Shown here in pieces: positions 8,800 through 33,410 of a stretch of 64,000 nt of DNA. The first letter of the stretch is position 1. Every line of letters starts with the position of its first letter. The DNA comes from Tetrahymena thermophila SB210. Taxonomy: Eukaryota; Ciliophora; Oligohymenophorea; Hymenostomatida; Tetrahymenidae. Both the position numbers and the translations under genes were made by a program. The notes beneath the pieces are model-generated. The model had not been told where the DNA came from, made no database searches, and saw only the letters and a list, made by a program, of their open reading frames with translations. The stretch is from positions 217,954-281,953 of the forward strand of contig NW_002476421.1 in NCBI RefSeq assembly GCF_000189635.1, read 5' to 3'.

Positions 8800-10284
8800 T
8801 CAATTTCGCAATTTGTTATCTTAATCTCCTTTGTTTGGTTACTGTCTCATAAATTTTTCTGTCAAGTTATGAAGTTTATTGCTTTAAAAATATTAGTGAC
8901 CATAATTAGCTGGAATAGAAACTATTTTTTAAAGATAGGAAAGTACTGATTTTGCAGTTTCTTTAAAATCTTATTATCCATTTTAATTTGATATTTTTAT
9001 AGTTTTTTGGTTGATATTGCTTTACTAGCATTTAATAGAATTTTTATTATCTTTTGATTGGCTTAATCTATTATTAGATTTAGGTGAGGCATTATAGAAA
9101 CTATAATCAGTTTTAGCAGTCTCATCATTTTGGTCATCATCATTATCATCCAATAAGCTAATTTATTTGATCGGAATCATCTTATTTTACATCATCTTTT
9201 ATGCTTATTCTTAGTCAATACTGATTTTCTGTCTTCTTTTAGATTTGTATTATTACTATAATTATTTATATGATTAATTGAGTTCTTTTGCTTTTTTGTC
9301 AATTGATTTTTAAATATCTTTATATTATTATTTTTGAATTCTTTCTGATTAATTCTAAAGAAATTCATTTTACTCTCTTTAAATTTAATTGTTTTGATTT
9401 TAATTGATTTACTATTTTAATTTTGTAGAAGTAATTTTATTTTATTCTTATGAAGACATTGGTCGGTAAATTCTTTCAGTTTAACATTTTTATGTAAAAT
9501 TTTTGACATTTTGTTTATTCTGTAATTATTCCATCTTTTAATCTTTCATTTTCTTTTTCTTTTTCTGAATTTCATAATATTAATCAAGATAACTTTATTA
9601 TTACTCTAATTACTCAATTGTTATCTCTTTATTAAAATGTTAACAAAGATTTTACACTTCAAATATAGTATCTATGCGGGATACATATGTTGGTTAGTAT
9701 AGAGCAGAGCGTAATCTGTATATTTAATAAAAATCTAATTTTTCTCCTCTACAATCAACAAACTAATCAGTGTCTACGCCATTAGTCTAAAGTTAATTTT
9801 CTTACCAGATAGAGACTTCCTCTTCTGTGTCAGAATCACTTTCTAAAATATTCATTTCATGGGTTTTATTAATTAGATATTTATCTCTCAAATTTTATTA
9901 TTTATTATTATTCTTATTTTAAGGAGAAGATAATTAAAAAGAATTTTATTTGTATTAATTGAATTTCTATTTAATTAGTTAGCTTTCTTTTTAATCATTA
10001 AATCTAGGACATTATGCTTTTGGGGATTGGCAATATTAAAACTGATTACTGGAATTTAATTTATTTTAAGGACTTTGAATTTTACTCCTGTTGGAATTAT
10101 TATAAAATTAGTTTGTTTTAGATTATTCTTGCCTCGGAGAAATACTAGAGTTAAGTTTTTTATTTAGATTTTCAACTTTAAACTTTTAGACATTCTAAAA
10201 ATCAAATTTTTTCCACTAAGAAATTTGCTTAGTAGAGTTTATTGGTGAAAGAGATTCGTTTTTGCACAAGCTTCTGTTAATCAT
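8800..10284 (-). CDS. Unknown-family protein A (LDFYQIYRLRSALYQ family, intact)
   Basis: Single-exon frame of 494 codons plus TGA, start CAT at 10282-10284. N-terminal third is Ser/Asn/Gln-rich with SPxx patches. An acidic stretch ESDSDTEEEVSIWQEN comes just before the family core LDFYQIYRLRSALYQ (about residues 183-197), followed by PTYVSRIDTIFEVQ, HFNKEITIEQLEQQQSYLD and a basic, Gln-rich region. A second acidic patch (LLDDNDDDQND) and a more hydrophobic block, FKETAKSVLSYLQKIVSIPA, lie near the C-terminus. No signal peptide, membrane helix or known domain is recognised; it reads as a largely disordered soluble, perhaps nuclear, protein. It lies head-to-head with B across a 2.7 kb spacer and has a close copy, C. 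Function unknown. That several members stay intact argues it is a real gene. Confidence 0.85.
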
Positions 10285-12957
10285 ATTTAATTTTAAAAAG
10301 CTTTTTTTGATGTTAATCTTTTTATTTAATTAAATTAATTATAATGAATTTTTTCCATAAACATTTTTAAATTACTGATTGTTTAATCAACAGCTAACTG
10401 ATTTAAATGGTTATAAAATTTTATTAATATAAATTTACCAATAATTAATCTCTAGAATGATTCATAAGAATAATATTTTTGGTTCAGTAACTTTATTTTT
10501 TAGGTCAGGTATAAATAACAACAAACTCATGATTGTAATCAAAGAATTAATGATTTTATATTTGCATAATAAAATACATAGAATACTCAAAATATATTTC
10601 GATAAGTATTTAAGTAAATAACTATATTTTATTTAATAAGTAAATAATGTTAGCTGCTATATTAATAAAAAGTAATTTTGAAGAAAAATTGAGATGGTTA
10701 TAATGATTATTGATAAAAGCAAATTTTAGGTCATCGGCTAAGTTGAGATAATATATTGTTTATCTATTTTTAGATAGAATGCATCCTTAATCTTTTCTAG
10801 TTCTCTTTTCAAAAAATTTATTGATTGCAACTTTTAGCTTTAAATAATTCAACACTCAATAAAATTAGAGATTAGTGTTAGATGTAAATTTAAATAATAA
10901 TGGTTCTTGAAATTGTAATCTAAGACGAATAAGCCCAAGCTTTTGAGTTCAGAAAAAAGTATCTTTTTAGAAAAATTATAAATTTCATAATTTTGAACAA
11001 TTTTGATTTATTTTATATACAATCAAAGCGTACTTAAAAATATTTTATGAGTTTTTGAAGAGCTTTCATTTTTATTGTAAACTCAAAAATGAGAAAGTTG
11101 GTTTGTGACTATTCTAATTTAATTACTTGAATTGCTTTAATCAAAATCAATTTCTGCTAACTGACTCTTTCTTTTATTGAAAAATCAATGTTTGTTTTTT
11201 AATCACTCATTTAAAACAAAACATAACTAAATATTTTCTTTCTCAAAAATCAGAAATTTTTATTCGCACATTATTTTTCGAAATCTACCATCATTCTTCT
11301 TTTAATTAAATGAATAATTTTTCATAAAAATAATAAAGTTAAAGAAAAAATAGCTAAATATTTACCCTAACTGATTACCTCTTTTAGGCATAGCTGCTGG
11401 AGGAATCAAAGTAGTAAAATATATATCTTTATTCAATAAATAATCTAAGAAATATATATAGTTGCTTAAAATTATTTAAATATAATAATCAAAAATTTCA
11501 CCAGCTCTTGTTTTTAATTATTTCAGATAACTTTTATCAATTTTAATTGATAGATTTAAACAAATATTATTAATTATTTATCTATTGATTACTTCATAAT
11601 TTTTCTCTTAAGAGTTATTTTAGAAATTAATTTAAAAATTCACAAATAATCAATTTTCTTCGACTTTATAAAATCCAATATTGATAAATAATGAATCATT
11701 TTTTTTATTTTATCATTTTAAAAAATATTTTTTTACTTAAGTTTTCTTTAAAGTGTATTAAATATTTACAAAAGCCATAGATTTTATATATTTTATTAAA
11801 TAAAACTTAAAATAATAAATATATTTTACATTCTATTATTATAAATATAGATGTAATAATGAAAAAAGTTAAGTAATTAGTTTTTTAATATTTTTGTTTA
11901 CTTTAATTCACTAAGGAAGCTAAATACTAGTAAATTTATTAGTTATTTTATAATATTCGTATTTTGTTCAAATATTATTTTGAAATAAATATATATTATA
12001 AACAAACAATTCTTAGGATATTAATTTTGGCTTACATAAATCCTAATTGCCTTATGTAATTTAATTTATAAGAAAAAAGAAATTGTAAAAATTTTATTTA
12101 AATAATAGGAAGGTCAGTCAGTATGTTGAAAAATTATATAAGAACTTATTTAAATAATTTAATTAATATTGTTGTACCTAACTAATTTTTTAGTGAATCG
12201 CTTTTTTAAGTAATTTTTTTATGTGAATTTTAAACATGTATAAAAACAGTTTATTTTTCAATAAAAGGGTTTAAAATGTGCTTATTTATTTAAAAAACTG
12301 ATGTTTAAATCTTTTGTTCGAAGTATTATTACTTAAAATTCAATTTATACTAAGGTTCCTATTTATAACCTTTGCAATTTAAATATGCTCTTTATGCTAA
12401 CTTTAAATCCAATTAATGTTCGATAATTACTCAACCAAAATAAGCAGTCTGTTATTTAGTTAGTTAGTTATTTAAAGTTCAATGATTATAATAACAATAA
12501 TTTATTTTAGTTTTTATCTATTTTTAGCTGAACGATTGATTGTATGGTTATTAATTAACTATAATTTACACTTTAAAAAATAAAGCTGATTCATTTTTCT
12601 TATAAGTTTCTTTAAATGTTTCATCTATCTAAAAAGTAATAGATATATAAATTATTAATAAATGCATAAAAATGGTCTCAGTTATTAATCTAAAATATAC
12701 TAATTTAATACAAAAAATAGATGTCTAAAATGATTAATTTTACTTTTATTTTGTTTATAGCTTAGAAAATTTAAATTTATAATCTACAATTAATTGCTTT
12801 AAGAAAATATTTTTTTATACTTATTGGTGGAAAATATATTTTTAGGTGCTTAAATTATATTTGTAAGGGTGATTAGTATATAATAAATGCTCTTTTTGTA
12901 ATAATTAAATGATTAAATAATAAAATCTAAAGTACTATAAAAAAAAGCTTAAAAATA
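10285..12957. other. Shared spacer between divergent genes A and B
   Basis: 2.7 kb of AT-rich DNA between two genes pointing away from each other, so it should hold both promoters. It aligns along its length with 17425-20131 between C and D, with many small indels. One 40-bp stretch (11374-11413) is conspicuously better conserved. No open frame with coding composition was seen. Confidence 0.6.
11374..11413. promoter_or_regulatory. Conserved island in the A/B spacer (copy 1)
   Basis: The core TTTAGGCATAGCTGCTGGAG plus flanks is almost identical to 18635-18674, while surrounding spacer has accumulated many changes, and it is richer in G+C. It could be a shared regulatory element, a short internal exon (AG before, GT after on the plus strand), a first exon on the minus strand (ATGCCTAAA then a GGTAAT donor), or part of a small RNA. 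I cannot choose between these. Confidence 0.5.
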
Positions 12958-14406
12958 ATGAGAAATGCAATTGATAAAAATAAATGCCGCTCTCCTATTA
13001 GTTTTTCTAAAAGCACTTAAAAGTCAAGGCTTGAACTTTTGAGTCTCTGTAAGCCTAATATTCAACATATTAATACAAAACTTAATTCTACTCTTTCTCC
13101 TCAGCATATATAGCCTAAAATAAAGCAATCTTAAGATAGCTAATAAATTCAAAGCCCTTCTAAAACAAACAAATTTTTTGTATTTAATTCTTAAAATAAT
13201 CAGTCACCAAAGACCAAAAATAACAAATCGAGTTATTAATTAGAAAAGAATTAATTTTAGTAAAAATTTAATTTATCAAAAATAGAAAGCTCATTTTAGC
13301 AAAAATCATCTTTTGATAAGAATTCTTAATAAAGAAGGGATCATTATTTAATTAATAAAAAATATAAAACTTAAGATGATGATAATTTAAAAAGTGATGT
13401 AGAATCAGAAGAAGAAATTTCAATATGGGAAGAAAATAAACTTAAAACTTAATTTATTGATAGTAGAGGAGGATAGTTAGATTTTTACTAAATTTACAGA
13501 TTGCGCTCTGCTTTATACTAATAAACTTGTGAGTCTCCCATAAATACTATTTAAGATGTATAAATTTTATCATAGCATTTTAATAAAGAAATACCAATAG
13601 AGTAGTTATAATAACAACAATCATATCTTGATAAATACTATGAAATTTAGAAAAAAAATTACGCTAATTAACAATAGTAAAATAAACAAAATTAATAGAA
13701 ATTTATTAAAAAATGTTAAACATAAAGAATTGAGAGATCTAAAACTTCATATGAAAAAAATGAATTTAATTCTACCAAGTAAAAACAATAGATAAGTAAA
13801 TAATAACAAAAAAATTTAAGTAATAAACCTCAAAAAGAATTACTCCATGATTAATTTGAGAAAATTCAAAAATATTTATAAAACAATGATCTTTAAAAAG
13901 AAAAAGAAAAAAATTTATAATGCGAATCTTATTTATCACAAGAGTAGCATAGATAATAATATAATTCTTAAAGAAGACATAAAATTAATATTTATTAAGA
14001 ATAAATTTCGAAGTTGATACAAACCAAAATAGTTCCAGTCAGATATATAGACCTAACGGATGATGATGATGATTATGATGATGATGAAGATGATGATGGT
14101 TATAATTGTCAATACACAAATCAAAACAAAATCCTTGATAATGCTTTTTCTGAATATTATAACAAATAAGAATTATAAAAAGAGTATAAAAACACTGAAA
14201 TAGATATAAGTACTGATGATAAGTAACTAATTTTGAAAAATGAAAAATAATTAAGTAACTAATAATTTACAGAAACCGGAAAATCAATACTTTCTAGTCT
14301 GTAAAAGACAATCTCTTGCTAAACCAATTGCAGCTAAAAAAATTTTTCAAATACTAAATTAAATAATCTAACAAAAAAATCAATAAATTAGAATTTATGT
14401 AAATGA
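12958..14406 (+). CDS. Unknown-family protein B (LDFYQIYRLRSALYQ family, intact)
   Basis: Single-exon frame of 482 codons plus TGA (14404-14406), start ATG at 12958. Same order of parts as A: polar Ser/Gln/Asn-rich N-terminus, acidic VESEEEISIWEENK, DSRGGQ and the core LDFYQIYRLRSALYQ (residues 174-188), then INTIQDVQILSQHFNKEIP, a Gln-rich and Lys-rich coiled stretch, a strongly acidic run of Asp from (GAT)n codons near 14058-14097, and a C-terminal ETGKSILSSLQKTIS block resembling A's. No known domain, signal or membrane segment. A and B align in the core but differ outside it, so the pair is older than the A/B to C/D duplication. Function unknown. Confidence 0.85.
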
Positions 14407-15942
14407 AAATAAGATTTTAATTAGTAAAATTGAAATTAAAATTAAAAAAAAATATAACAATTTATATTTATGTATCAATTTTATATTAGATAAAATAGTA
14501 TTTTTTTAAAATGAAAACTACTTTACAATTAGTTTTCTTTGGTATTTATTCAAAATAAAGATTAAATCTAACACTTTTACTTGATAAAAGCAGTTTATTT
14601 GTTTTGGATTGTGATAACATTATCTACAAAAGTGATTTAAAAAAACAATAAGAAATTAAAAATCAGTAGTTTGGTTTTTTTAAATTCAGTGATTCCTTAA
14701 ATTATTTATTTCAATCATAATAAACTATAATTAACTGACCCTTTCTGTTTTTGATTTAAAGCCTGATAAATTCTTCAAAATTTCAATTAATCAAGAACCA
14801 AATTAATAAAGATAATCAATTTATGCAGAGTTCTGTATTAGTAACTCAAGCTGCTTTTAAAAGCTAATATAAACAAAGTTAGGAATTTAATAGATTCAAA
14901 TTTTTATCATGTAAAAGTAATCATTAAAAATTTAGGAGAAAAAAAATTATTTTTTTGTGTGTGATTAATATAAATAAATTTTTATTTATCTATAATTATA
15001 AAACAAACTATTAAACTAATTTCTATGCAAAAAATATTATAATATATAATTTTAGTAATGAGCAAAAACTTAGATACTAACTAAAATATTAATTGTATAA
15101 AAATATTCAACTTATTAAACTGAATAGTAAATTAAGTAAGTGACTTTAGTTATAATTAATTAATATGTTCACAACACTTATGTTTTTATAAATTATAATT
15201 GTTATTGGATTTCATAAATTATATTTTTTTGCTAAAATCTCATAAATATATTGTCATAGCAAATAGGAAACCTCCCATACTTTATTTAATAACAAAAATA
15301 CTAAATTTCTTTTAATTAAACATTCATTAGTATATATACAGCCTATCCTAAATAAAAAAGGCATTTAATTATTAATATACTGAAGTAAACATTTGATATA
15401 ATAATTGTGAAAAAAATTTTAATCTATCTTATTTTTGTATTTGATATTATATTTTATATACATAGTTGATGTAATTTTATTGTGATAAATATATCAATTA
15501 ATCGGTAGAGCTTTAAAAATTTTATCTATTAAATATAATATAATTTGAAATTAGCTAATTAAAAAAAATGTATGGTGTGGCACTATCAAAAATATGAATA
15601 ACATTATGTTAATTCATACTGACATAGATATTTTATGAAAAATTATATGTGAGTCTGATAACTAACTTATATTCTTAAAATAATATCAAAAAAAAGAAAA
15701 ACTTGAACTAATTTAATCATATTTTTTTATAATATTAAATAAGAAAAAGTATCTGAATGATTGGATCATAATGCTTCAAATCACGAAAAAGGTAATAAAA
15801 ATTTTTCGGAAGTTTGAATTAGATAATTTTTATTACTTTTTATTTGAGCAAAGTAAATATGTTAGAAGAAAAATATGGAGACAAGTAATAAGAATTGATA
15901 GCATATAAATAATTTAATTTTATAAATATTTTATCTTAAAAT
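14407..15942. other. Spacer after B and before C
   Basis: AT-rich. The part to about 15310 matches the flank after D (21605-22550), and the part from about 15457 matches the flank beside A. The junction of the two duplicated units therefore lies near 15310-15457. No gene seen. Confidence 0.6.
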
Positions 15943-17424
15943 TCAATTTGGCTATTTATTATCTAAATCTCTTTTGTTTGGTTACTATCTCATAAATTTT
16001 TCTGTTAAGTTATGGAGTTTATTGCTTTAAAAATATTAGTGACCATAATTAACTGGGATAGAAACTATTTTTTAAAGATAGGAAAGTACTGATTTTGCAG
16101 TTTCTTTAAAATCTTATTACCTATCTTAATTTGATATTTTTATAGTTTTTTGATTGTAATTGCTTTACTAGCATTTAATAGAATTATCTTTTGATTAACT
16201 TAATCGACTATTAGATTTTGATGAGGTATTATAGAAACTATAATCAGTTTTAGCAGTCTCGTCATCATGCTCATCATCATTATCATCCAATAAGCTAATT
16301 TATTTGATCGGAATCATCTTATTTTGCATCATCATTTATGCTTATTCTTAGTCAATACTGATTTTCTGTCTTCTTTTAGATTTTTATTATTGCTATAATT
16401 ATTTCTATGATTAATTGAGTCCTTTTACTTTTTTGTCAATTGATTTTTAAATATCTTTTTTTTATTATTTTTTAATTCTTTCAGATTAATTCTAAAGAAC
16501 TTCACTTTTATCTTTTTAAATTTAATTTTTTTCAATATAGTTAATTTATTATTTTAATTTTGTAGAAGTAATGTAATTTTATTATTATGAAGACATTGGT
16601 CTATAAATTCTTTCAGTTTAACATTTTTATGTAAAATCCTTGATATTTTGGTTATTCTGTAATTATTGCATTTTTTAATTTTTAATGCTGTTTTTCTTTT
16701 TCTGAATTTCATAATATTAATCAAGATAAATTTATTATTACTATAATTACTAAATTGTTATATCTTTATTAAAATGTTAACAAAGATTTTACACTTCGGT
16801 GATAGTATCTATGCGGGAAACATAGGTTGGCTAGTATAGCGCAGAGCGTAGTCTGTATATTTAATAAAAATCTAATTTTTCTCCTCTACAATCAACAAAT
16901 TAATCAGTGTCTACACCGTTAGTCTAAAGTTAATTTTCTTACCAGATTGAGACTTCCTCTTCTAAGTCAGAATCACTTTCTAAAATATTCACTTCATGGG
17001 TCTTATTTTTATTAACTTGATATTTGTCTCTCAAAATTTATTATTCATTATTGTTCTTATTATTATGAGGAAATGATAATTAAAAAGAATTCTATTTATA
17101 TTAATTAGATTTCTATTTAATTAATTAGCTTTCTTTTTAATCATTTAATCTAGTATCTTATGCTTTTGGGGATTGATAAGATTAAAACTGATTACTGGAG
17201 TTGAATTTATTTTAAGGACTTTGAATTTTACTGGTGCTTGAATTATTTAAAAATTGATTTGTTTTAGATTATTCTTATCTTGGAGAAATACTAGAGTTAA
17301 GATTTTTATTTTCAACTTTAAACTTTTAGATGTTCTAAAAATCGAATTTTTTCTAATAAGAAGTATACTTAGAAGAACTTATCGGGGAAACAGATTCGTT
17401 TTTGCACAAGCTTCTGTTAATCAT
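15943..17424 (-). CDS. Unknown-family protein C (close copy of A, intact)
   Basis: Single-exon frame of 493 codons plus TGA, start CAT at 17422-17424, colinear with A. It begins MINRSLCKNES like A and keeps the acidic SDSDLEEEVSIWQEN stretch, CRGEK, the core LDFYQIYRLRSALYQ (about 184-198), PTYVSRIDTI and the C-terminal TAKSVLSYLQKIVSIP block. Differences from A include substitutions and several in-frame indels, and the frame is never lost. That is what selection on the protein would leave, unlike the decay of its partner D. Function unknown. Confidence 0.85.
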
Positions 17425-20131
17425 TTTTACTTTTATAGCTTATTTAATTGTTTTTCTTTATCTTTAATTAAATTAATTATAATAAATTTCTTCCAAAAAA
17501 TTTTTAAATTACAATATCAATCAACAGCTGGTTAAATAATTAAAGGAATTTCATTATTATTTTACCAATAATTAATCACAAGAATAATTCAAAGAAATAA
17601 TATTTTCGGTTCAGTAACTTTATTTTTTAGGTCATGTATAAAAAACAACAAATTCATGATAGATATACTGTTTTTATATTTACATAAACAAAATTTATAA
17701 TTCATAGTATTAAAAATTACATAGGATACACAAAAAATATGGATAAGTATTTATGTAAATAACTTTTTTTTATTAAATGAATATAATTTTAGCTGTAATA
17801 TTTATTAATCAAAAAAAAATTTGAAGAAAAATGGAAATGGTTATAAAGATTATTAATTAATAAATGCAAGTTTTAGGTCGTCCGTTAAGTTGAGATGATA
17901 TATTATTTATCTATTTTTAGATAAAATGCATTCTTAATCTTTTCTAGCTCTCTTTTCAAAAAATTGATTGCTAACACCTTTAGGCGTTAATTAATTCAAA
18001 GCTATCTTAAAATTAGAGATTAGTGTTTATTGTAAATTTGAATGATAATAGTTGTTAAAATTGTAATCTATGATGAATTAGTCATAGCTTTTGCTTTTAG
18101 AAATAAATAACTTTTTAGAAAAAGTATAAATTTAATAATTTGAAATAATTTTGATTTATTTATCATTCAAGTTAAAGGTTACTTAGAAATGTTTTAAGAG
18201 TTTTTATTGAAGTGTTATCATTTTTATTGCAAAACTGATGAAAGAGAAAGTTGTATGTGCAAAAATTTTAATTTAATTACTTGAATTGTTTTAATTACAA
18301 TCAATTTCTGCTTACTGACTCTTTCTTTTATTGAAAAACCAATGAATGTTTTTTAATCACTCTTTGAAAAGCAGAACATAAAAAAAACCTTTTCTTTCTC
18401 TTAAATCAAAAATTTTTATTTACACATTATTCTTCAGAAGTATACCAACAATTTTTTTTATAAAATGAATAATTTTTACCTATTCTTTATCTAAAAAATA
18501 ATAAAGTTGAAGAAAGAACCTTTTCATTTTTGAAAAATTATAAGTAATTACCTTAATTCTTCTAATTTAAGAGACTCTAAAATGCCAAAATAAGTGTTTT
18601 GTCTTAAATTAGAAATATTTACCCACACTAATTAATTACCTCCTTTAGGCATAGCTGCTGGAGGAATCAAAGTATTTAGTAAAACATATTTCTTTATTTT
18701 TTAAAATTTATAAAACAAATATATATTTGTTTAAAATTAGTTAATTGCATAGGAAATCAAAAATTTCATCAGGCATTCTTTTTAATTATTTTAGGGAGCT
18801 TTGCCAAATTTTAATTGATTAATAAACAATTATTATTATTTATCAATTGATTACTTCATAAATTTTTATTTTAAAAGTTATTTTAGAAATTAATTGAAAA
18901 ACTCACTAACAATCTATTTTCTTCTACTTTATAAAATCCAATAACGACAAATATTTTTTTTGATTTTATGATTTAAAAAATATTTTCTTTATTTAAATTA
19001 ACTTTAAAATTTATTAATTATTTAAAAAAATTAAAGATTATAAATATTTTATTCAGTAAAACTTAAAATAATAAATATTTTTAAATACTATTTTTATAAC
19101 TATAGATGTAATAAATGAAAATAAACAGTTAATTAATTAGCTTTTTTATATGTTTTCTTTAATTCATTAAGGAAACTAAATACTAGGTACTTGCTAATAT
19201 TAGTATGTATTTTGCTCTAAATATTATATTGAAATATGTATTATAAACAAACAAATTACTTGTGGTTTGAATAAGCCCTAATTACCTTTAAACGAAGAAT
19301 TTGCCAAATTTTAATTTAAATAATAAGAAGGTTGATTAATATGCTGAAACATATTAAGAACTCATTAAATTAATTTAATTTATATAGTTTTATCCAGCTA
19401 ATCCTCTAGTCAATTGATTTTTCAAGTAATTGTTTTATGTAGATTTTAAACATCAAAAAAAACAGTTTATTTTTGAATAAAAGTTTTCAAAAAGTGCTTA
19501 TTTGTGCTAAAAACTGATGTTTAAATATTTTGTTCGAAGTATTATTATTTAAAACCAAATTTATACTAAGATCAAGTTCCGATTTATAGCCATTACTATT
19601 TTAATATGAGCTATATATTAACTTTAAATCCAATTAATATACGAAAATTGCTCAGCCAATATAAGTAGTCTTCTATTTAGTTAGATGTTTATTTAAAGTT
19701 CAATGATTATATTAATAATAATTTCGTTAGTTTTTATCTATTTTTAGCTCAAAAATTATATGGTTATTAATTAATTAAAATTTACACTTAAAAAAAATAA
19801 AGCCGATTAATTCTTCTTACAACTTTCTTTAAATACTGCATCTAAATGAATATTTAAATGATATTTATCTAAAATATACTAATTTAATATAAAAAATATT
19901 TGTATAAAATGATTAAATTTATTTTTATTTTGTTTATTGCTTTGAAAATTTAAATTTATAATCTACAAATGCTACTTTTTTAAGAAAATATTTTTTTTAT
20001 ACGAATTGATATTTTTAACTGCTTAAATTATATTTATAAGGGTAATTAATGGTAATAAATGCTTTTTTTATGATAATTAAATTACTAAATAATAAAATAT
20101 ATAAGTATTATAAAAAACAAGTAATAAAATA
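17425..20131. other. Spacer between C and decayed D
   Basis: Copy of the A/B spacer. AT-rich and without recognisable coding sequence. It contains the second copy of the conserved island at 18635-18674. Confidence 0.6.
18635..18674. promoter_or_regulatory. Conserved island in the C/D spacer (copy 2)
   Basis: Near-identical to 11374-11413, with only small differences, inside an otherwise freely drifting spacer. It is retained although the plus-strand neighbour D is decayed, so it may serve the minus-strand gene C. Confidence 0.5.
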
Positions 20132-21604
20132 ATCAGAAATGCGTTTGATATGAATAGATGCTTATTTTTTTAGTTATTCCGAAAACACTAAAAACCAAGA
20201 CTTGAACTTTTGACTCTCTGCAAATCTAATATTAAACATATTTATAAAAATTTAATTCTACTCTTTCTCCTTAAGCATATATAACCTAAAATAAAACAAT
20301 CGTAATAAAATTTAGGATAAATTCAAAGCCCACTAGAAAAAAAAGAATATTTTGACTCTTATAATGATGAGTCAGTCGCCTAAGACCAAAAATAACAAAA
20401 TTTAGTTATTAATTAGAAAAGAATTAACTTTAGTAGAAATTTAATTTATCAAAAATAGAAAAATCTTTTTGGTAAAATCAACTTTTGATAAGAACTCTTA
20501 ATATAGAAGAGATTATTATTTATTTAATTAATAAAAAAAATAAAACTTAAGATGATGATGATTTAAAAAGTGATGTATATATAATAAGAAGATGAAATTT
20601 CAATATGGGAAGAAAATCAACTTAATACTAATGGAGTAAATTCTAACTAATTTATTGATAGCAGAGGATAATAATTAGATTTTTACTAAATTTATAGTTT
20701 GCACTTTGCTTTATACTAATAAGCTTATCTGTTCCGCATAAATACTAATTAAGAAGTATAAATTCTTTCATTACATTTTAATAAAGAAATACCAAGAGAA
20801 TATTTATAGTATCAACATTGCTTTCTTGATAAATACTATGATACCTAGAAAAAAAATTAATCTATTCAATAAAAGTAAAATAAACTATTTTCTGACAAAA
20901 ATTCATAGAAATTTATCTAAAAATGTTAAATAGATAGGATTTAGAGATCTAAATCTTCATATGAAAAAAATTAATTTAGTTCTACCAAGTTAAATTAACA
21001 AATTATCAAGTAATAATCTCAAAATTTAAGTAATAAACCTCAAAAAGAATTACTTCATAATTAATATGAGAAAATTCAAAAAAGATTTATAAGATAGATA
21101 ATCATATTTAATAATAAATAAATTAAAAAGAAAATTTAAAATATTTATAATGCGAATTTTATTTATCACAATAATATAATTCTTAAAGAAGACATCAAAT
21201 TAGAATTGATTAAAAATAAATTACCAAGCTGATGCAAATAAAAATAGTCCCAGTCAGATAAATAGATTTAACGAATGATAATAATAATTATGATGATCAT
21301 AATTATGAATACACAAATAAAAGCAAAACCTTAAAAATACTTCTCCTGAATATAAATAAGATTAATAGTAAGGGAATAAATATATTGAAACACATAAAAG
21401 TAAGTAGTGATGACAAATAACTAATTTTAAAAACTTAAAAATAATTAATTAAGTAATTAATAATTTACAGAAATTGGAAAATCAATACTTTCGAATTTGT
21501 AAAAGACTATCTCATGCTAGGCCAATTGTAGCTACAAATATTTTAAAAATACTAAATTAAGCAATCTATAAAAAAAATCTTTGGATTAGAATTTATGTAA
21601 ATGA
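20132..21604 (+). pseudogene. Decayed copy D of gene B
   Basis: Colinear with B along its length but disrupted. The position of B's start codon reads ATC (20132-20134), and B's reading is carried by different frames in different segments: for example the acidic block is interrupted near 20570-20595 and the C-terminal third changes frame near 21110. The core persists in altered form (LDFYQIYSLHFALYQ, about 20665-20710). The stop matching B's is at 21602-21604. I read it as a pseudogene that arose after the 7.2 kb duplication, unless introns rescue it, which the positions make unlikely. Confidence 0.75.
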
Positions 21605-23359
21605 GAATAAGATGTTAATTAGTAAAATTGAAATTTACAAAAAAATAAAAAAAATATAACAACTTATCAATTTATATTAGATAAAATTGTTTTTTTTTTA
21701 AATGAAAGGCCTGCTTTTTTATGAAGTTTTCTATGGTATTTATTCAAAAATAAAAGATTATATTTGTTTGGTATTTTAATTCATTTTTTCCTTCTAACAC
21801 TTTTACTTGATAAAAACAGTTTATTTTTTTGGATTGTAATAATTTAAGCTACAAAAGTGATTGAAAAAACAATAAGCCTATTAAAAATCAGTTATTTTAA
21901 TTTATAGATTCTTAATTGAGTTATTTCAATCGAAAAAAATTATAATTTACTAGCTCTTTCTTTTATCAATTTAAAACCTGATAAATTCCTGTAAATTAAT
22001 TAAAAAAGTTAATCAGTGTATGCAAAATTCTAAATTAGCAACTCAAGCTGCTTTTTAAAGGGAACTAAAACAAAGCTAGGAATTTAAAGAATCGAATTTT
22101 TAATATGTAATTTAATACAAATAAAATTTTTTTGATAAAGCAAAGCAATCAATAAAAATTTTAGTGGAAAAAATTAATTTTTTTTGTGTATTTTTTTAAA
22201 CAAATTTATATTTGTCTTTAATTTAAAAAAGAAGCAATTAAACATATTTCTATGCAAAATACAATAAAAGTAATTAAATAATCTGAATAATTAGCAAAAA
22301 CCAAGAAATTAACTAAAATATTCATAATTTAAATATATATTAGGAAATAAAATGTTTGTTTTTAATTATAATTTATAAATATAATTTACATATTTCTCAT
22401 ATTTTTTGTTTTAATAAATTATAATTGATCAATTGTTATTGCATTTCTTAAAATATATTATATTAACTATTTGTCGAAAATCTCATAAATATTTTACATA
22501 GCAATTTGGAAATCTCCCATACTTTATTTAATAACAATAATACTAATAAAATTTTAAAAAAATGATAATTTTGAATTTTTATAGGCCTCAAATACAATCT
22601 TTATTAAGGATGCTAATAGAGTAGATGATAATCGAGGTTTTACAGTATATATATATTTAAATAACTTTTTAATTCCTCATACACTTATGTAATATCCCAC
22701 TCTTCCACTTTTTTAAACCTATATTTTATCAGGATGGGGCAGAAGGAAGGGATTATTAATTAATAGAAAGCTGATTTAAAACTTTTTTATATAATCTTAT
22801 AAAGCTATAATAATTTTCAAATATCTAGAATTTTAAATGTTAATATTTTTATTAACAATCTATATTTGTTACAATAATTGGTGTAAAAATAAATTAATTA
22901 AGGGTAGAAATTTTTTTAATCAGCGACTTGTTAGAAATTCATCTATCATTTATGCACTATCAATTCTGATAGATTAAATGACTTTTGGGACTGTTTAAAT
23001 GTTATGAAAAAACGTAATTTTAACAAATAATAAAGCTAATAATATATTTTAATTTAAAGATAAGGAATTGATCATGACATACACACACACACACACGAAT
23101 TTATTTTTGCTTTAATAAATAATCATGCAATCAATATTAATTATTTACTTAACCAATTTTAGAAAAAATGAAGACTATTACAAATTTTTAGATAGACATA
23201 GATTGATAGATTCACTCAGTATTATACTCAAAGTTAAATCAGATTATAAAAGTTTTATATTAAAGAATAAAATCTGATAAATTATAATATGATTTACTGT
23301 CTATGTCACTACTTCACTGTATTGAATTTATTAATTTTGATATTGAAAAAATAAGGTGA
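21605..23359. other. Spacer with a few weak open stretches
   Basis: Up to about 22550 this is the right flank of duplication unit 2. Beyond it one frame stays open at about 22590-23000 (containing FIKDANRVDDNRGFTVY), and another short one lies around 23165-23277. In a genome with a single stop codon neither length is significant. They may be exons or relics of locus E. Confidence 0.4.
23081..23096. repeat. (AC)8 microsatellite
   Basis: Eight AC dinucleotides in a row, in non-coding DNA upstream of locus E. Confidence 0.9.
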
Positions 23360-24245
23360 CATTTAGATGTTGAAGAATTAGCTAATTAAAAACTTACAAT
23401 TATATATCAGAATTTAATAAGATATCCGTTTCATGAGTAGTTGACTAATTTATTTTAAATTAGTGAAATTAATAATACATAAATTAATAAAAAATAATAA
23501 AAACAAAAATAATTAAAAAACATCTTTACAAAAGATAACTAACAATAACTTGAACAATTAATTAATTGCTCGCATAAGAAAATAAATTAAAAATTTTGCT
23601 TTAATTTTAAAGGAAATCATTAATATGACTTGCTATAGTATCCAAATTATCTTTTCTAGGACTGATAATACATAATAATCCACCATAAATATTCTTGCTA
23701 ATTAAGAGTTAGACTTTTATCAAACATATTAACTATATCCAGTCCAAGCTACTTATGAGCAAACAGAAAACTGGAACTAATAGTAACTAAAAGATTTCGA
23801 AAATTAAAGTTTTTCTTTTGACTAAGATGGTTATAAATCTTTTAGCGAGTTTCCAAGCCTATATAGCCTATGTGAAGATGAAGAAGTAGAAGAAACCAAT
23901 TAAATTGAAAATGGAGAAGAAAATTATATTCTTGATAGTTTTAATGAAATAAATGACTTTATATTTTTTGAAGAATTAGACTATTAATAAATTCGCCCAT
24001 AAAATAATATTATTAAAAATCGCATAAAATAACAAAATAAATAATAAGTAATACCAAATAGTCCCTAAATTTAATTCTAATAACCTATGAAAGAAAGCTT
24101 TAAGTATCATATACCATATAATTCAGTGATTAACAAAATTAACCTATAAAAAATAAATTAATAGTAAGAACTAAAAAAAATTGAAAATTTTTCATAACTC
24201 ATATATAATAATATGGGGGACCTGGCGCAAACGTCGTAAGTTTGA
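23360..24245 (+). pseudogene. Locus E: broken or unresolved gene, remote relative of the A/B/G family
   Basis: Two overlapping frames with clear coding composition. The first (23360-23665, HLDVEELANQKLTIIYQ...) has no start and ends at TGA. The second, in another frame (ATG 23625 to TGA 24243-24245, 206 codons), contains ELDFYQTYQLYPVQATY, an acidic CEDEEVEETNQIENGEE and a second DFIFFEELDYQQ. The LDFYQ-Y-L motif and nearby acidic stretch suggest a distant family member. A TGA just upstream (23357-23359), the frame change and a C-terminus that runs into a GC-rich hairpin suggest decay. An unrecognised intron could also join the two frames. Confidence 0.5.
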
Positions 24246-24345
24246 AACCAGGGGGGTATTTTGAAAAAAATGTAAAATATTTCATTCAAAATTATATATA
24301 TTACTCGATAACTGAGTGACCCCACCCTAAATCTTTTGTATACCA
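24211..24345. other. GC-rich hairpin and flanking element
   Basis: In DNA that is otherwise very AT-rich, 24215-24256 holds a run of G, an inverted repeat (CCTGG...CCAGG outside, CAAAC...GTTTG inside) and a run of G again, followed at about 24312-24330 by TGAGTGACCCCACCC. The minus strand is open for 63 codons under the standard code. Composition and structure differ sharply from both neighbours, which suggests an inserted short element or RNA structure. It is not a complete tRNA: the A-box-like and B-box-like parts are too close together. Confidence 0.45.
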
Positions 24346-26984
24346 TCATTAACTAATATAATTATTATTATTATTGTTTAAGATTGTTTATTGATATTTT
24401 TTCTGTTGATAAACATAAAACTTTTTAAAAAATGTCAAAGTGATATAAGAAATATTTAGTATAAGTATGAATTAAAGTTAATATCTATAATTAGTTTCCT
24501 TTAAGGTCAATAGATTTTATGAATATTACATATTATCTATAATCAATTTCTTGCCGCATTGAGTTATCATGTTTGTTTACCTCATCTTCATTATCATAAT
24601 TTGAATAGTTATCATTTTACAATTTTATATTGTTTAATTAATTAATTTCTGTTATTACTTAGAATTTAGAAAAGAACATTACTCTTGTAAATTTTTTAAA
24701 TTTGAATTGGGATCATCTCCTTATTTTAAATTTATTTTTCTTCCATAATTTAGTTTTACATGTTAATTCGAATATAAATTTAGCTTTTATTCAAATAGGA
24801 GTAATAATATTTTAAAGGAGTTTGTAATTTGCATTTTTTTTTTTGTTAGTTATTACATATGTTTTTATAAAAAGATGAGAATTTTCTTTCTCTTAAAAAA
24901 AATTAAAAGATTGTCTGTGTTAGGTGATTTGGAAAAAAAATTTAAGATAATAGGATCGTATTATATTTTAATTAAGCTCTTAATTTTTTTCAATAATAAA
25001 AAATAAAGCAGTTTTAAATGCTAAATATTTTTAATTTTTTTATGGAAACTAAGAGCCTAAATCGCAATTACTTGTAGTAACTTAAAGAATAATTTTAGAT
25101 ATTTATCAACAAATTTATGAGTAGGATTTATTTATTTCATCCATTAGATAATACTAATTTTTATTTATTAACTTTACTATGCAATTCAGTAATTAATGAC
25201 CTAATTTGTTTCTTAACTCCCAAAAAATTCACGCAAATTTAGAATTTATTTGGATTGCTAGCTTTAATCTCTAAAAACTATGAGAAAAAGAGCATTTTAA
25301 CTATTTTATTTTTATAGTATTAAAAACCAATCAATCTTAAAATTTTGATACTTACATTACATAACAATAATTATATGTAATATGTACATTTATTTTTTTA
25401 GCAAATATCTAAATATTTAATTATTAATTCTTGAATTCATAATTATTATTAAATTCAATTAATTTTTTGAATACAAAAATTATATGGTAGTTATTGATTG
25501 ATTCTAAACAATTTATTAAAACTAAAATTAAAAAAAGGCAAAGAAAAAATAGAAAGTTAATAAATAAATAAATGAATATTATAAAGCTATTGAATGAATT
25601 ATTAACAATTTATTTATTTTATATTTTATAAAAATAAAAACAATAAAATTTATTTCTGTATTTATGAATACATAAATATATTTAGAAATTGTTAGGTAAT
25701 TTTTTAAGCTTTTATTATCTTTCAATACTCTATTTTCTCTCAATCAGTTTTCCTGTAACAACGAAAAAGTCATTAAACTATTTAGAACTTTCCATAAAAA
25801 TTTTTTTAACTTAATAATAATAGACTAGTTAGAAATTAGATTAACAGTAAGTAATCTTTCTTCTCTATAAAAATCATAACTAACAATCTCATTTCAATTT
25901 TATGATTATTTACAAAATAAAAAAAAATTAAACAAAATAACTCATTGATTTTCTGATTATCCTGCTTACAAACCTTTAAAAAATTAATCTGACAAAATCT
26001 AATTTACATTTTTTTTATAAAATCTTTACTTGAATTGCAAAGGAAAGCTGCTAACTTACTGTATTTCTCATTAAAAATCACTCCTCAAAAAATGAATTTT
26101 TTTAGTTAAATTTCATACTGATAAATAGAGAGATATAATTGAGTTTTTAGAATAAAATTGTTTTATTTATTTTAATAAAGATATATAGTTAATATTTTAT
26201 TTATATCTAGATAGCCAAATTTAATAAATGTTGCAATTAATTATATTCATTTTAAATTGTTTTTAATAGAAAAGTTCACTTTAATATGCGCAGTTAGTAA
26301 GTTAATAAGTAAATTATTTTTAAATTTATTACTAACTTGCACTCAAGTAATTAAAATTAATTAATATTTTATTAGCAGCTTAGTTTTTATCCATATAAAT
26401 ATTAGTTTTTAAAAATTATTTTATAGAGACAACTTAACAGAGCTGTTTCTATTGTATTAAACAAATTATTCGAGTAATTAATTATGGATTGCTTGCTTTC
26501 TCTTTTCTAATTTAGTTTTTTGATGAAAAAATAAATACTTTATAAAATGAAAAATACAAATTAAACTTCATTTTTTAATAAAAAAACCAATATAAATTAA
26601 ATCTGACATTCTTAATCTTAAATACTTACTTAAAATATATTTTCATTTATTTATTCTTTAAAGTAAAAATATTGGTTCATAAGATTTCACTCAGTAAATA
26701 AAAACTTGTAAATAAAAATATTCATTCCCTAGCTCATTAAAAGGTTTTATTTATTTTGAGATAAATCAATAAACATTTTAGGTATATTCAAATATTTTCT
26801 GTTAAAAACACTTATAATATAAAAATTAATTTATACCTTATCTTTAATTCTAATTAATTAAGGTAAGTTGAAAAAATTATTTAAAGTTAAAACTAGAAAC
26901 ATCAATCTTTCTTTCTTTAAACAAATATATGATTTTGTCAAATTTTTTTTGTTAAATTCAATATTTTTACTTAAAAAATAATTT
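24346..26984. other. AT-rich intergenic region
   Basis: About 2.6 kb with long A and T runs and no supported gene. It separates locus E from decayed member F. Confidence 0.55.
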
Positions 26985-28426
26985 TTATTTACTTGAGCTC
27001 TAATCCATAGATTTGTTTATTAGATCATCAAGTTTAGTATTTTATTATTATTATTTCTAAAATTTATTTAGCTAGAAACTATCTTTTTGAGATACGAAAG
27101 TACTGATTTTGCAGGTTATGAAGCATTTTATTTTATTAATTCACTTCCAAGTTTCGAATTTATTTCGCTTTGATATATTTTCGAAACATTAGTATTGTAT
27201 GTATATCCTTTTGATATATTTGATGATTAATTAGATTTTTGAGAGGTATTACAGCTATAGTTATTTTTTGGGGATTCATGATTATCCTTCTAATAAGCTA
27301 ATTTATTTGATTGGAATTAGTTTTTTTAAAATAAATTTCTTAGCTTCTTCCTAATCTATACAAATTTTTTATCTTCTTTTAGATTTATATTAGTTTTTTT
27401 ACTACTTTTGAAATAATTAAGATTATTTACTTTCTTCTTTTCCTTTTTAATTTACTTAATTTTTATGTTCTTTTGGTTTGTAAGTCATTTTCTATTTTTT
27501 CATAATAATTCTCAAATTATTCTTTTTGAATTTTATTCATTTTTTTGAAATTTTTTATTTAATTGTTTATTATTTTAATGTTGTAGAAGTAATTTCATTT
27601 TTTTAGTATAAAGATTTAGATCTCTAAATTCTTTCAGTTAGCATTTTTGAGAAAAATCTTTTAGATTTTTGTGAAGTGGTAATTTATTCTAATTAAATTT
27701 TCTGGTTTAGTCTTTTTTCTAAATATCATAGTATTTATCAAGATAACTTTATTATTACTTTAATTAATCCATAGATATTTCTTTATTAAAATGCTATGAG
27801 AGGATTTATACTTCTTAGATAGTATCTAAACGAGATCCATAAGTCTATTAGTATAAAGCAGAGCGCAATCTGTAAATTTAGTAAAAATCTAACTATTCTC
27901 CTCTATAATCAACAAATTAATCAGTATCTACTCCACTAGTCTTTAGTTGATAATCTTCCCATATAGAAACTTCTTCTGAGTCAATTTTTAACTTAGTCCA
28001 TCAAGTGTATTATTTTTTGACTTTAATAAATTAGCTATTTATTTATTCTTAATTACTGATTGTACTCAAAAGAAGATTATTGCTAAGTAGAATTTTCTAT
28101 TTTTAAAATGTTGTTTTTTAGTTAAAATGGATTATGTTCTTATTAATAATTTAGATTGGTGTTTTAAGTCTTAGGTAATTGATAAGTCTAGGGACTAAAC
28201 ACTACAAATTGGTTTGTATTTGAAGGAATCTGAGTTTTGAAGCTATTTAAATATTATTTAAATCTGTTTCTGCTTGATTATTGATGTTTGGGAGATAGGC
28301 TGGAATTAAGATTTCTATTGATTTGTTCGATATTAAGTTTATAAAGGTTCTAAAATCAAACTTTTGCAGCTGAGAATTTTCAGGAAGATTAATAGTTGAT
28401 ATATTATTTTGTATTTTATTCATCAT
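26985..28426 (-). pseudogene. Decayed family member F
   Basis: Minus-strand relative of A/B/C/G. The central segment is intact in one frame: DSEEVSIWEDYQLKTSGVD, DYRGEQ, LDFYQIYRLRSALYQ, QTYGSRLDTIQEVQILSQHF, then SYLDKYYDIQKKD. The N-terminal portion reads in other frames (a possible start at 28424-28426 lies in a different frame from the core), and the frame is lost again near 27620 and after. The C-terminal AKSVLSYLKKIVSSQ block is still visible near 27080-27120. At least two or three frame disruptions, so a pseudogene. It sits head-to-head with G in the same arrangement as A/B. Confidence 0.7.
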
Positions 28427-31400
28427 TTTTAAAGCTTGTTTTTGCTATTTGATAATATATTTTTAGATTATTTTCCTTAGTAATTTAATTAGCTCCTTAC
28501 ATTTTAGAGCATTAATGACTCAGCTTTCCAGCGTTATTTTAAATTACAATAATTCTATCAATAAATCTATAAGACATCTTTCAATGAAAAAAAGTGTAAA
28601 TTATAACTCATAATTGAATTCACCAAATAACTATGAAATGGTTGAATGCGCAATTAAATTCTATTTTGCACAATATCATAATTTAAGCTATTAATACATT
28701 AAAAAAGTAATTAATATTATTTTTACTTATTAGGACACAAATTTTTTAACAAGTGCATTCAAGATTTATCATTCATAAAATGTTTAAAAACTAAGCCTAT
28801 TGGAAATTAACAATAAATAATAAGTTTTAAAAACTAATATTTTCATTATTTGTAACATGAAAAAAGTAAATAAAATTATGATAAAAATGTGCATGAATCT
28901 AAATTAAAAAAAAAATAAATTGCTAATAGATTGTTACTAGTCAGTAAGTAAATGATAAATATTATTAAGTTACTTGAATATAAAACAATTAATATGGATT
29001 TTGATTGATCTAGATATTATATTTAAATCAAATAATAGCCAGCCTATTTGGAAAAAATAATTTAAATCTGAGAAAAGAATTAAATTTTTTCATTTGCATA
29101 TGAATTAATAATGGCTAAAAAATAGGAAATATAACGATGAATAAAATAAATTTTTTGTTTTTAAAATAAATTTCTTTAAATTAAACACTTTTAAATTTAT
29201 TTTTTACATAAAATTGTAGTTCTGATAGGTAATTTACTCAAAATTTAGGAATTAAAAAAATGTAGAATATTTACTTTAAATATTGATAAAAATAACGTAT
29301 TAAGAAGAACAAAGTTAACTGAATGTGTTTTTGTCAAATAAATTCCTTGAAACTAATTATTTTGATAATTTATAAATTGTTAATCTTAAAAAGTAACTAA
29401 GTAAATTCTATTAAAACATGTATATACAATCGAATTAGTATATTATGAATTACTTTTAAATATTTTTGAAATGCTTAATATTAATATAAATAGTTAACTA
29501 ATTTATAAAATGATTTTCTTACTGAAGAATGTTAAATAAAACATATCATGAATAAATTACCAAAATTATTGTACCTATGTACCATTCATTTTAAGGGAAG
29601 ATTCATAAAATCGATTTATTAAAATTGATCTAAAATTTAAGATTATTAAATGAATAAAATTTTATATATAATATTTGTAAAAATATAATATATTTTTAGA
29701 TAAACTTCTTTAAAAAAAATATTTTTTAAGAGTAAAAATCAAAAATGAGCTATTTATTACCTAAATTAATTTATTTCTAAATCCTGGAAGAAAATAAATT
29801 GTTGTAAGTTAGTTAGTAAATTGAATAATTTTTAATTACAATAAGAAAATATACAAATAATTTATTAATTTTAAAATTGCATCAGCTTAAAATTGATCAA
29901 TCAGGTAAAAAAGCAAAATAAATATTTTTAAGACTACTTGAATTGAAGGTAAACATAGAAATTTATGAATTAATTAAAGAATTTACACTTCCTAAAAAAT
30001 TAACGCCTTACTTCTTAAAAAATTAACTAAGGCATTAATTTTTTTACAATGCTCATCATATAATGAATTGTTTGCAATACTGCCATCTATCTATAAAATA
30101 ATTTAATAATATAGTTGTAAACAACTCTTAATAACTTCATTTATTGAATTGTTATTTTCTTAACTCTTAAAACATTGAAATATTTAAATTTAAATTATGT
30201 CTCTTTAATATAAAAAGTAACCAAGCTAAATATTCAACTATTTAAGATACATAATATAGTTTTTCAAGTATTTAAATGAGCACAAAAGGCAAGGAAGACA
30301 AATAAATAATTAATTAATTATAGTATTATTACAACCTCAAAATTTTTAGTGTAAGTAGTAATGACTTTAAAAGAATTCTAATAACCAGTGTCCTTTATTA
30401 AAAAAATTAATTCTTCACAAATCAATAATTTTTAGGATAAACAAAATTTGAAGAAAAAAGAGATTTTCTATTCTTACATTCTTAGTTAGCTATTTGTGTA
30501 TAGAGCGAAAAGCTTTATTTAAATACACTAAATTTTAGTTAGTTTGTTTTATTATTATCATAACAAGTCTTAAAAAAATGATCAAAATACATACCTATAA
30601 ACCTCTAAAACCAATAAATTTATTAGATTATTCAAATTTAAATACATTTTAACTCTATTGGCATTAAAAATATTTTTTTTAATAAAGTTAAAAGCTTTAT
30701 TTTATAAGAAAAAGGTTGTTTATAGATTTAAATATTCCATAATTAATTCATAATATGATTTGCACTTCTCTAGATAGCTTTTGAATAGAATAAAGTATTA
30801 CAATTCAAAAGATATTATATATGAATGTGCCATATAATTTAGTATTTGATTTGTTTAATTTTTATTAGGTATAGTTAGTTATTAATAAGTATTTATAAAT
30901 AAATCAGTACTTATCATTCAAACAAAAAAAAATATCTACTTTTTTATTTTATGAATGTATACTTAAATGAAGTATAAAAGTAAGTAAAATATTCAGATGA
31001 TATTACTTTATTATTGGATAACATATACTGATTTATAGTTTTTCTTAAGGTATGGATAAATATTTTTACTATAAAATATTAGTTGCAAATGTATCAATTT
31101 TATCTAAAATATATAAAAGGGAATAGTATATTATATGTTTAAAATTATATCATACACAATTAAAGCATCTTGAAGCGTTTAAAGCATATTTATTTACAAG
31201 AAACATAAAACAAATAAGTGAATTTGAAGAAAAGATCAATCTTAAATATATTTATTAAGATGGCTTTTTTTTATTTTTTTATTTTCTTTTACATATACTG
31301 ATAATGTGTGTCTGTGTGTAAAATAGAATAAAGTTAACTTTTGATAAGGACGATTTTTAATTAATGGTAAAAAATAAAAATAAAAACTATTTATTTAATA

Positions 31401-32186
31401 TTAATTCATACATATTATTATATAATAAATATATATGATCCTTTGTTTGCATGATTTTGGATCATGGAAGCATATTCCTTTGAATGAAAAACTCAAAAAT
31501 AAAGCTGTTTTAAGCTTATTTAGCTTTATTTTTTAAGTTATGAAAATATATTATATTTTGCCTTTTGTAAATTAAATAGACATTTCACTCTAGGTTCAAA
31601 AAATAAATTTCCTAATATCTTTCTATATGGAGATTAAGAAAATTCATCTTATATTTGCTCTCTTTGATTAGTTTCCATAGGTAAAAAAACTACCTTGGAA
31701 ATAAAATCAAATAGTGATACTGTTAAGTTTTTTGAATAAATAATTAAGATCAAACATTTTAAAAATTAGATCATTAATTACTGATTAGCATTTTAAAGTT
31801 AAGAATCTTACTTTCTTACTTAAAAATTATTAATAATATTCTCAAATGCTCTTCGAGTAAAGTAATATTTGGCTTAAAAATATTATTTCTTTCAAAAAAT
31901 TTGAATAATATTGAATATAATTAATTATAATCTAAAGCTGATTTATATTATCTACTTAGATATAAATAAAGAACTTGCATTAATGATAACACTATAATAT
32001 TTTCTTAAATCTTAATTAATAAAACCTTGCCACCCAAGTAAGTCTTTTAACTTTATAAGTAAAAGAAAATTCCTAAAATGTAATAAACACATAAATAATA
32101 ACAATAATAATAAGTCAAATTAAAAAAAATTATTCAACTCATAAAAAATCTTATTTCTTCTATTTGACTAAAAATTAGATTCAAAT
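28427..32186. other. Spacer between F and G
   Basis: 3.7 kb of AT-rich DNA between two divergent family members. I saw no open frame with coding composition and no copy of the conserved island found in the other two spacers. Confidence 0.5.
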
Positions 32187-33410
32187 ATGAATACAGATTT
32201 AAAATTGTATCACGAAAAATACCTTTAAACCACTAATATTGAAAAAAACCCACTCAACACTTAATTTTAAAATATTAACGATAATATTTTTAAAAATGGT
32301 ACTTTTGAAAATATCTAAGCCTAAAAAGAAACAAATTAAAGAATAAATAATTAAGGATAAGAATAAATGAAGAAAAATAGCTTAAAATAAGAAGAGGGTC
32401 TTAATTCTAATTAATAAGATTTAAAATAATTTCATGAATAGTAAATTATCTTCAAAATTCAAAATAATGAGAAAATTTAACCATATTGTTTGAATGTATA
32501 AAGTATTAGTTATTCTAATGATGATAGTGATGATGAGGATAGCGAAGAAGAATACTCAATTTGGGAAGAAAGTGAAATTGAAAATAATGGAATAAATGCT
32601 GATACACTTACTGACCCTAGAGGTAACTAATTATAGTTTTACTAGATCTATAGACTTCGTTCAGCTTTATATTAAAAATCTTATGTATCTCGTTTAGACA
32701 CCATTAAAGAAGTTTTAAAAATATCATCTCATTAAAAAAAAAAAATATCAATAAACACTCTTAAACAATAATAAAATTACCTTGACTTTTTCTATCCAAT
32801 ACAAAAAAAGGATTTTAAAAATGAAGAAAATATTTTATTTAATATCAATAAAAGCACTCCAAAATAATTTGAAAATTATTTTAATTAAGTAAACAAAGAA
32901 ATCAAAGATAAAAATTTAATAGAATAAGTAAATAACTATTAAAACAAAGATAAAAATTAAACCAGTGAAATAAGATCATAATTATGTTTGTAAGACTAAA
33001 ATAGTAGGAGATAATCTTTAAAGCTACTTTTAGACAAGAATAGTAAAATGAAATAAATATTTGAAAATAATAAAATCTACAATACGAAAAGCAAAGATAT
33101 AGGAGAATAAGTATTAGGCTATTATGCTAGAAAATAATCACTAAAATTGATATTAAATAAGAACAAAGTATCTAAATAATCAATATCCGAAAATAATAAT
33201 TTTTAAAAAATTGATTTAAATAAAGATAACAATATAAAAGAAACAAATTATCATGGTATTTAAAATAAATAAATAGCTTGTGAGGAAGAAAAACAATCAC
33301 CACAAGATTTAGATGAAAAAAATTAATTAGAAAGTAAAATTAGAAAAGGAAATTTAATATAAATAAACTTTTCCTTTCTCTCTAATTTAAAAATGAAGCT
33401 CTTTTCCTGA
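32187..33410 (+). CDS. Unknown-family protein G (LxFYQIYRLRSALYQ family, intact)
   Basis: Single-exon frame of 407 codons plus TGA (33408-33410). The N-terminus is polar. Then come NDDSDDEDSEEEYSIWEESE, a NGINADTLTDPRGNQ linker and the core LQFYQIYRLRSALYQ (residues 149-163), followed by KSYVSRLDTIKEV, ISINTLKQQQNYLDFFYPIQKKD and a Lys/Asn/Gln-rich tail. It is the most diverged intact member and is shorter at the C-terminus. The core and the spacing from the acidic stretch are nonetheless kept, which makes the core the likely functional part. No membrane segment or known domain. Function unknown. Confidence 0.85.

Follow-up and report, generated by a model that had tools for sequence, protein, structure and literature searches.

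A Tetrahymena thermophila gene family with an apparently undescribed conserved segment, multiplied in part by block duplication

Among the species-specific genes of Tetrahymena, tandem duplication is reported to be common (PMC6564038), and tandem duplications are concentrated close to putative germline centromeres in Tetrahymena, according to the available portion of PMC5182062. A second point of comparison is the W-acidic ligand of kinesin light chain, which is bound by the TPR domain of that chain. In PMC6214655, the tryptophan of such ligands is flanked by aspartate or glutamate, as in EWD. We investigated a window of 64,000 nucleotides from Tetrahymena thermophila (contig C126, positions 217954-281953), which harbors four related genes, A, B, C and G, and three decayed copies, D, E and F. 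A TERT stretch from the same genome agrees in 109 of 109 residues with the telomerase reverse transcriptase chain of PDB entry 6d6v, the T. thermophila holoenzyme, which fits macronuclear DNA of this species or a very close relative. They belong to one family, the four genes retain open frames, a core segment is more strongly constrained than the rest of the proteins, part of the cluster arose by duplication of a block, and several copies have decayed. To judge from the sequences, the segment appears to be an undescribed domain and the family itself an ordinary tandemly duplicated one. That these are largely disordered, basic adaptor or scaffold proteins, rich in asparagine and glutamine and each with one docking segment of about 90 residues, is a reading that we find about as easy to believe as to doubt.

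Genes A, B, C and G each consist of a long, uninterrupted frame in ciliate code 6, as a first-pass annotation made from the letters alone had noted (Table 1), and the similarity of their proteins is far above chance (84%, E-value 0, for A and C; 41%, E-value 5e-58, for A and B); the cores of A and G are 57% identical across 84 amino acids (aa), with an E-value of 8e-26. Searches of the organism's own genome (101 Mb, 445 contigs) used A, a pair of divergent cores, three others and one last query; they find the segment, within long open frames, at 19 loci distributed over 10 contigs (A, B, C, G, L003, L005, L009-L014, L020, L022, L023, L024, L028, L047 and L048), in addition to D, E and F; this count is a lower bound, and introns may be present. 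A C-terminal piece used as a genome query matches five places, all on C126, and the bare 15-residue core (15-mer) gives no match in the whole genome, being too short to score. In an alignment of 19 rows, made of 18 loci (without C) and F, with D and E left out, the tryptophan and an arginine are present in 19/19 rows, a tyrosine in 18/19 and a glycine in 17 of the 18 filled cells. The resulting family signature is [IV]W - G[IVFY][DN] - [FW]x[DN] - F[YF]x[LI]YxxR. The first-pass annotation had described the 15-mer as nearly constant, which holds for the young clade on C126; across the 19 family rows, only the tryptophan and the arginine are invariant. The shared motifs that it listed (an acidic SIW stretch, RG, the 15-mer, a DTI-type segment and QQQxYLDxxYxIQKK) are present, with deviations in B, D and G: B has SPINTIQDV in place of [ST]RxDTIxEV and a shortened linker (Table 1), the 15-mer of G reads LQFYQIYRLRSALYQ, with a single change (LQF for LDF), and that of D carries three changes.

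A tree of 19 cores, which includes C and D and excludes L047 and L048, places L005 and L010 together with the C126 genes (support 85/78). The closest core to that of G is the core of L009 (C126:198110), with weak support (80/70), and the tree as a whole is weak, since only one of its 16 inner branches is well supported, six are open, and five rows sit on long branches. Only the young clade and the members close to it keep the last two helices of the segment well. In the remainder of the proteins, which the same annotation had called freely variable, two C-terminal motifs had been overlooked: RRxK[IT]xIxQE occurs in A, B, C, L003 and L005, and LSYLxKI, a pattern fitted to the same rows, occurs in 8/8 members of the young clade that have long frames, namely A, B, C, G, L003, L005, L009 and L010, and in 0/9 of the others measured. 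A short motif, [MA]DTID[ST]P, precedes the core in the divergent members L005, L014 and L020, with weaker forms in L011 and L012.

Divergence was calculated by NG86 with code 6, gapped codons being dropped and the core comprising 89 codons, for 10 of the 15 possible pairs among A, B, C, G, L003 and L009; these pairs are not independent. The ratio of nonsynonymous to synonymous divergence (dN/dS) ranges from 0.07 to 0.23 in the core and from 0.35 to 0.69 outside it; most of the core ratios are rough, as the synonymous divergence (dS) of the core exceeds 1 in 7/10 pairs. For this reason A and C are the cleanest pair. Between them, dS is 0.23, whole-gene dN/dS is 0.31, the core has 11 synonymous and 6 nonsynonymous differences (dN/dS 0.12), and the rest has 44.5 and 75.5 (0.35); their 15-mers differ by three synonymous and no nonsynonymous changes. 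Fisher tests of core against rest on rounded counts of synonymous and nonsynonymous differences give p-values of 0.035 for A/C, 4e-4 for A/B, 6e-5 for A/G and 8e-6 for G/L009. The first-pass annotation had named a core ratio near 1 as the result that would speak against a constrained core; because the core changes slowly relative to the synonymous rate, no such ratio is found for the open copies. These results support purifying selection on the core of the open copies, as would suit a binding module. The decay of D, E and F might bring to mind a dying family that no longer has a function, but this is extremely improbable, as both the core and the whole-gene ratio of A and C argue against it, and so do the uninterrupted frames of A, B, C and G (475-494 aa).

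The decay of D and F, already noted in the first-pass annotation, is confirmed, and a third decayed copy, E, had been missed. In D, 14 of 20 indels relative to B are not multiples of three, and ATC stands where the start codon ATG is expected; in F, the same is true of 11/17 indels against A, 11/20 against C and 8/14 against B. We do not find any intron-like indel in D or F, the lengths being 1-19 for D/B, 1-14 for F/A and up to 38 for F/B. The core of D has a dN/dS of 0.58 relative to B, roughly the value expected if one branch were constrained and the other free, and core and rest do not differ in this pair (Fisher p 1.0); for G and E the core ratio is 1.6 and the overall ratio 1.04. The high core ratios of B/D and G/E are as expected after the death of a copy. 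F is closer to B (dS 0.56) than to A (dS 0.82). Its core is still a single open frame, while the remainder of F is broken, and has a dN/dS of 0.11 relative to A, 0.12 relative to C and 0.31 relative to B, its nearest relative. As the core of F is partly constrained, F may have died recently. The open core could reflect a recent death or a fragment that is being kept.

The first-pass annotation had recognised no known domain, and searches of Pfam, the PDB and NCBIfam agree with it in returning nothing credible. At E-values up to 1, no Pfam family matches A, B, C or G, 10 further members match none at 0.1, and the remaining five give a single weak match, to DUF4773 (0.12). With E-values up to 10, 12 cores match seven families, each in one core of the 12, the best being DUF4156 at 0.01, which we take as chance. 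NCBIfam yields four families for 17 cores, each in one of the 17 (best E-value 0.022), none of them credible. Single proteins searched against the PDB have best E-values of 0.065 (A, ribosomal S4) and 0.85 (L047, FBXW7), and the 12- and 17-row profiles reach 0.99 (myosin light chain) and 0.43 (heme oxygenase); these, too, are taken as chance. The calcium-binding loop of an EF-hand has the form DxDxDG. We rejected an EF-hand as a candidate, given that the myosin light chain match, which covers 30 positions, is the only one, and that no DxDxDG loop is seen by eye in 17 rows. Pattern scans yield 20 stretches in viral contigs and 32 in GTDB genomes, none confirmed as a relative; both are weak tests for a code-6 gene because their patterns are presumably in the standard code. 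A literature search with the motif letters SIWDNS, FYQIYRLRSALYQ, FYQLYRLR and YQIYRLRS finds no paper in the collection searched that prints them, and among the papers listed by topic no title or abstract start deals with this IW/LYxxR family.

Of two AlphaFold2 runs with six window sequences, the second, on the trimmed core, predicts helices at residues 32-43, 50-63 and 70-83, with block means of 77-80 across residues 51-80 in the predicted local distance difference test (pLDDT). In the adaptor reading introduced above, the segment runs from a patch of acidic residues and serines through IW[DE] and a G-[IVF]-[DN] turn to a predicted helix, F[YF]x[LI]YxxR, to which the young clade adds two more. 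It would dock onto one conserved partner, while the flanking tails, probably disordered to judge from their composition, would diverge freely. Asparagine and glutamine make up 20-31% of the 17 proteins measured, some of whose frames were read from the previous stop and not from ATG, and all 17 carry a net basic charge. Acidic-directed phosphorylation is of the CK2 type. Such phosphorylation, together with the proline-directed kind, may tune the docking, and the C-terminal hydrophobic motif could provide a second contact. Serine or threonine followed by proline ([ST]P) is found 97 times against 41 expected by composition, summed over the 17 proteins; in shuffles the excess is seen for A (6 against 1.6, p 0.001) and B (5 against 1.5, p 0.009), and is unclear for C (p 0.063) and G (p 0.23).

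Several observations weigh against the adaptor reading, in addition to the roughness of most of the core dN/dS ratios. The models are weak, with a mean pLDDT of 55.8 in the first run and 63.0 in the second (predicted template modelling score 0.50), and Foldseek searches of the PDB at E-values up to 10 return 8 and 12 rows, none below 1. L022 and L023 belong to the family at E-values near 1e-4 only. Together with L048 they are distant members that retain mainly the N-terminal half of the segment, so that some of the family may lack the three-helix module. Finally, the [ST]P excess is one over composition and over shuffled versions of the same proteins only.

It is also conceivable, though in our view unlikely, that the segment is a highly derived DNA-binding domain of the ARID/BRIGHT (helix-turn-helix) type and that the family consists of chromatin or transcription factors. 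The motif of ARID helix 2 resembles the LDFYQIYRLR of the family, a likeness that was spotted by eye: GxxLDFYxLYR of the family matches the start of ARID helix 2, LD[LF][YF]xLY, and where the family has RGEKLDFYQIYRLR, the genome's own ARID protein has GGRELDFFKLYKAV. Aligned by hhalign with 10 ARID sequences, the family profiles score 22.8 with 12 rows, 25.4 with 17 and 25.2 with 19; the 17-row score is far above 200 column shuffles, which reach a maximum of 15.7. The 17-row match has a probability of 32% and an E-value of 5e-4 for one template, which overstates the case because ARID had been picked by eye. In the same direction points the Foldseek search with the core model, where 5/12 rows are Fur DNA-binding proteins, all with E-values of 1.9 or worse. 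However, the ARID match is confined to 28-30 columns. ARID helices 3-5 without helix 2 score 6.8-7.9, under the shuffle median of 9.4, and global hhalign alignment gives a probability of 0.1-0.2%. When helices 3 and 5 are compared without gaps at 22 offsets, every score is negative and the register predicted for them comes 9th and 15th; this result is not final, since for helix 5 the adjacent offsets +1 and -1 come 2nd and 3rd. A GG loop and a tryptophan in helix 3 are defining features of ARID domains. Both are present in the 10 ARID rows and, by eye, at neither place in the 17 family rows. The Pfam ARID model (PF01388) has no match in 12 cores at E-values up to 10, a setting at which the HMMER filters drop most weak matches, no ARID chain appears in the PDB profile searches at E-values up to 10, and no ARID structure is among the Foldseek rows for the two weak models, which have a pLDDT of only 56 and 63. 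Despite the strong local match we therefore reject membership in ARID, as the rest of the domain does not support it and the GG loop and helix-3 tryptophan are absent. A related idea, that an undescribed domain (IW - G[ID] - LYxxR) derives from an ARID-like helix-turn-helix by loss of these two features and that its at least 19 paralogs, with disordered tails that change fast, are lineage-specific adaptors for chromatin or DNA targeting, still multiplying by block duplication, seems to us unlikely, too.

Searched against the whole genome at E-values up to 1, PF01388 finds one gene only, L046, which lies outside the family, as one first-look candidate. L046 (C308:80059-80316, minus strand) is the sole ARID-domain gene found in this genome, with a Pfam ARID E-value of 6e-24 and an ARID2 chain as its best PDB match.

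The arrangement of the genes had been read in the first-pass annotation as head-to-head pairs under shared control that may encode partner proteins. The strand order (A minus, B plus, C minus, D plus, F minus, G plus) is real, which favours this explanation; the independence of the pairs does not hold. The left block of 7 kb is repeated as the right block (Table 1), with 84% identity in the half that contains A and 76% in the half that contains B, and A/B and C/D thus represent one event, as both sit in copies of one duplicated block. F/G is not a pair of the same type as A/B, because F is nearer to B than to A, and E, on the minus strand, breaks the alternation. The plus strand carries all three members found on C199 and likewise the three found on C198, and L003 and L009, on C126, share one strand. 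With D and F decayed, A/B is the sole pair that retains two long open frames. The 2.7-kb spacer between A and B differs from that between C and D by 45 indels of lengths 1-93, no window of 100 columns exceeds 89% identity, and the divergence of the two copies is about the synonymous divergence of A and C. In keeping with this drift, comparison of the two spacers reveals no additional gene and no extended stretch of conserved control sequence; short elements could be missed in it. The open reading frame at 11691-12485 of the spacer was rejected as an extra gene, since 10/11 of its indels relative to the second copy of the block have lengths that would shift the frame. On the present evidence, head-to-head pairing is a local result of duplication and not a property of the family, and that it reflects shared control or partner proteins is very unlikely.

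Table 1. Family members, core modules and duplicated blocks in the window (positions count from the first nucleotide of the window).
Feature	Position	Strand	Remarks
C-terminal end of a further family member	3..410	+	enters from the left
Left copy of 7-kb tandem block duplication	8302..15304		A and B inside
Gene A	8800..10284	-	494 aa; uninterrupted ATG-to-TGA frame, code 6
Core module of A	9559..9825	-	EEEVSIW...IQKK, 89 aa
A-B spacer	10285..12957		73-89% identity per 100 columns to C-D spacer
Gene B	12958..14406	+	482 aa; uninterrupted ATG-to-TGA frame, code 6
Core module of B	13408..13656	+	six linker residues absent
Right copy of 7-kb block	15462..22546		C and D inside; 76-84% identical to left copy
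Gene C	15943..17424	-	493 aa; uninterrupted ATG-to-TGA frame; 84% identity with A
Core module of C	16696..16962	-	
Decayed copy D of B	about 20132..21604	+	ends hand-counted from alignment; core remnant 20588-20854
Decayed copy E, G-like	24368..25033	-	
Decayed copy F, B nearest	about 26923..28491	-	ends are extents of DNA matches; core 27713-27979
Gene G, divergent	31983..33410	+	475 aa; uninterrupted ATG-to-TGA frame, code 6
Core module of G	32544..32810	+	

Other genes in the window include two adjoining protein-kinase genes at 35627-37719 and 38159-40606 (Pkinase E-values 8e-20 and 3e-36), a direct duplication with 82-84% identical DNA. A cysteine-rich protein with Furin-like repeats (E-value 3e-24) is encoded at 4376-6433 on the plus strand, with internal DNA repeats at 4666-5464. 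At 60531-63303, also on the plus strand, two adjoining frames match a P-type cation ATPase (E1-E2 ATPase E-value 3e-42, Cation_ATPase 3e-11) and are perhaps one gene interrupted by an intron.

The copies of the family would have arisen through tandem block duplication, inverted duplication and dispersal, some of them decaying afterwards in a process of birth and death. The cluster is a clear case of the latter: after one block duplication both copies of A stayed open and one copy of B decayed. A segment without a credible match in the searched databases is thus present in at least 19 Tetrahymena loci, and selection keeps it in the tested copies while the remainder drifts. If the segment does serve for docking, a single partner may account for an entire family of uncharacterised proteins in this model ciliate.

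Compared with described systems, the family is reminiscent of the W-acidic motif, as its tryptophan likewise lies in an acidic stretch, and IWDNS and IWDDD resemble the TNLEWDDSAI of SKIP, a sequence given in the excerpt of PMC6214655. One could accordingly imagine that the proteins use this motif to bind kinesin light chain and act as cargo adaptors; however, the residue that precedes the tryptophan is isoleucine or valine in 19/19 rows and not acidic as in EWD, and the tryptophan is kept within a longer conserved segment, along with the G-D turn and the helix that lie downstream of it and for which a free peptide motif has no need, which makes this assignment highly improbable. With tandem Tetrahymena clusters, such as the leucine-rich repeat (LRR) genes described in the available text of PMC6564038, the family shares clustered paralogs that arose from tandem duplication, here of a 7-kb block whose copies are 76-84% identical. 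In contrast to those LRR genes, as far as that text describes them, the genes investigated here show no LRR or other known domain in the searches above and consist of single open frames in mixed orientation.

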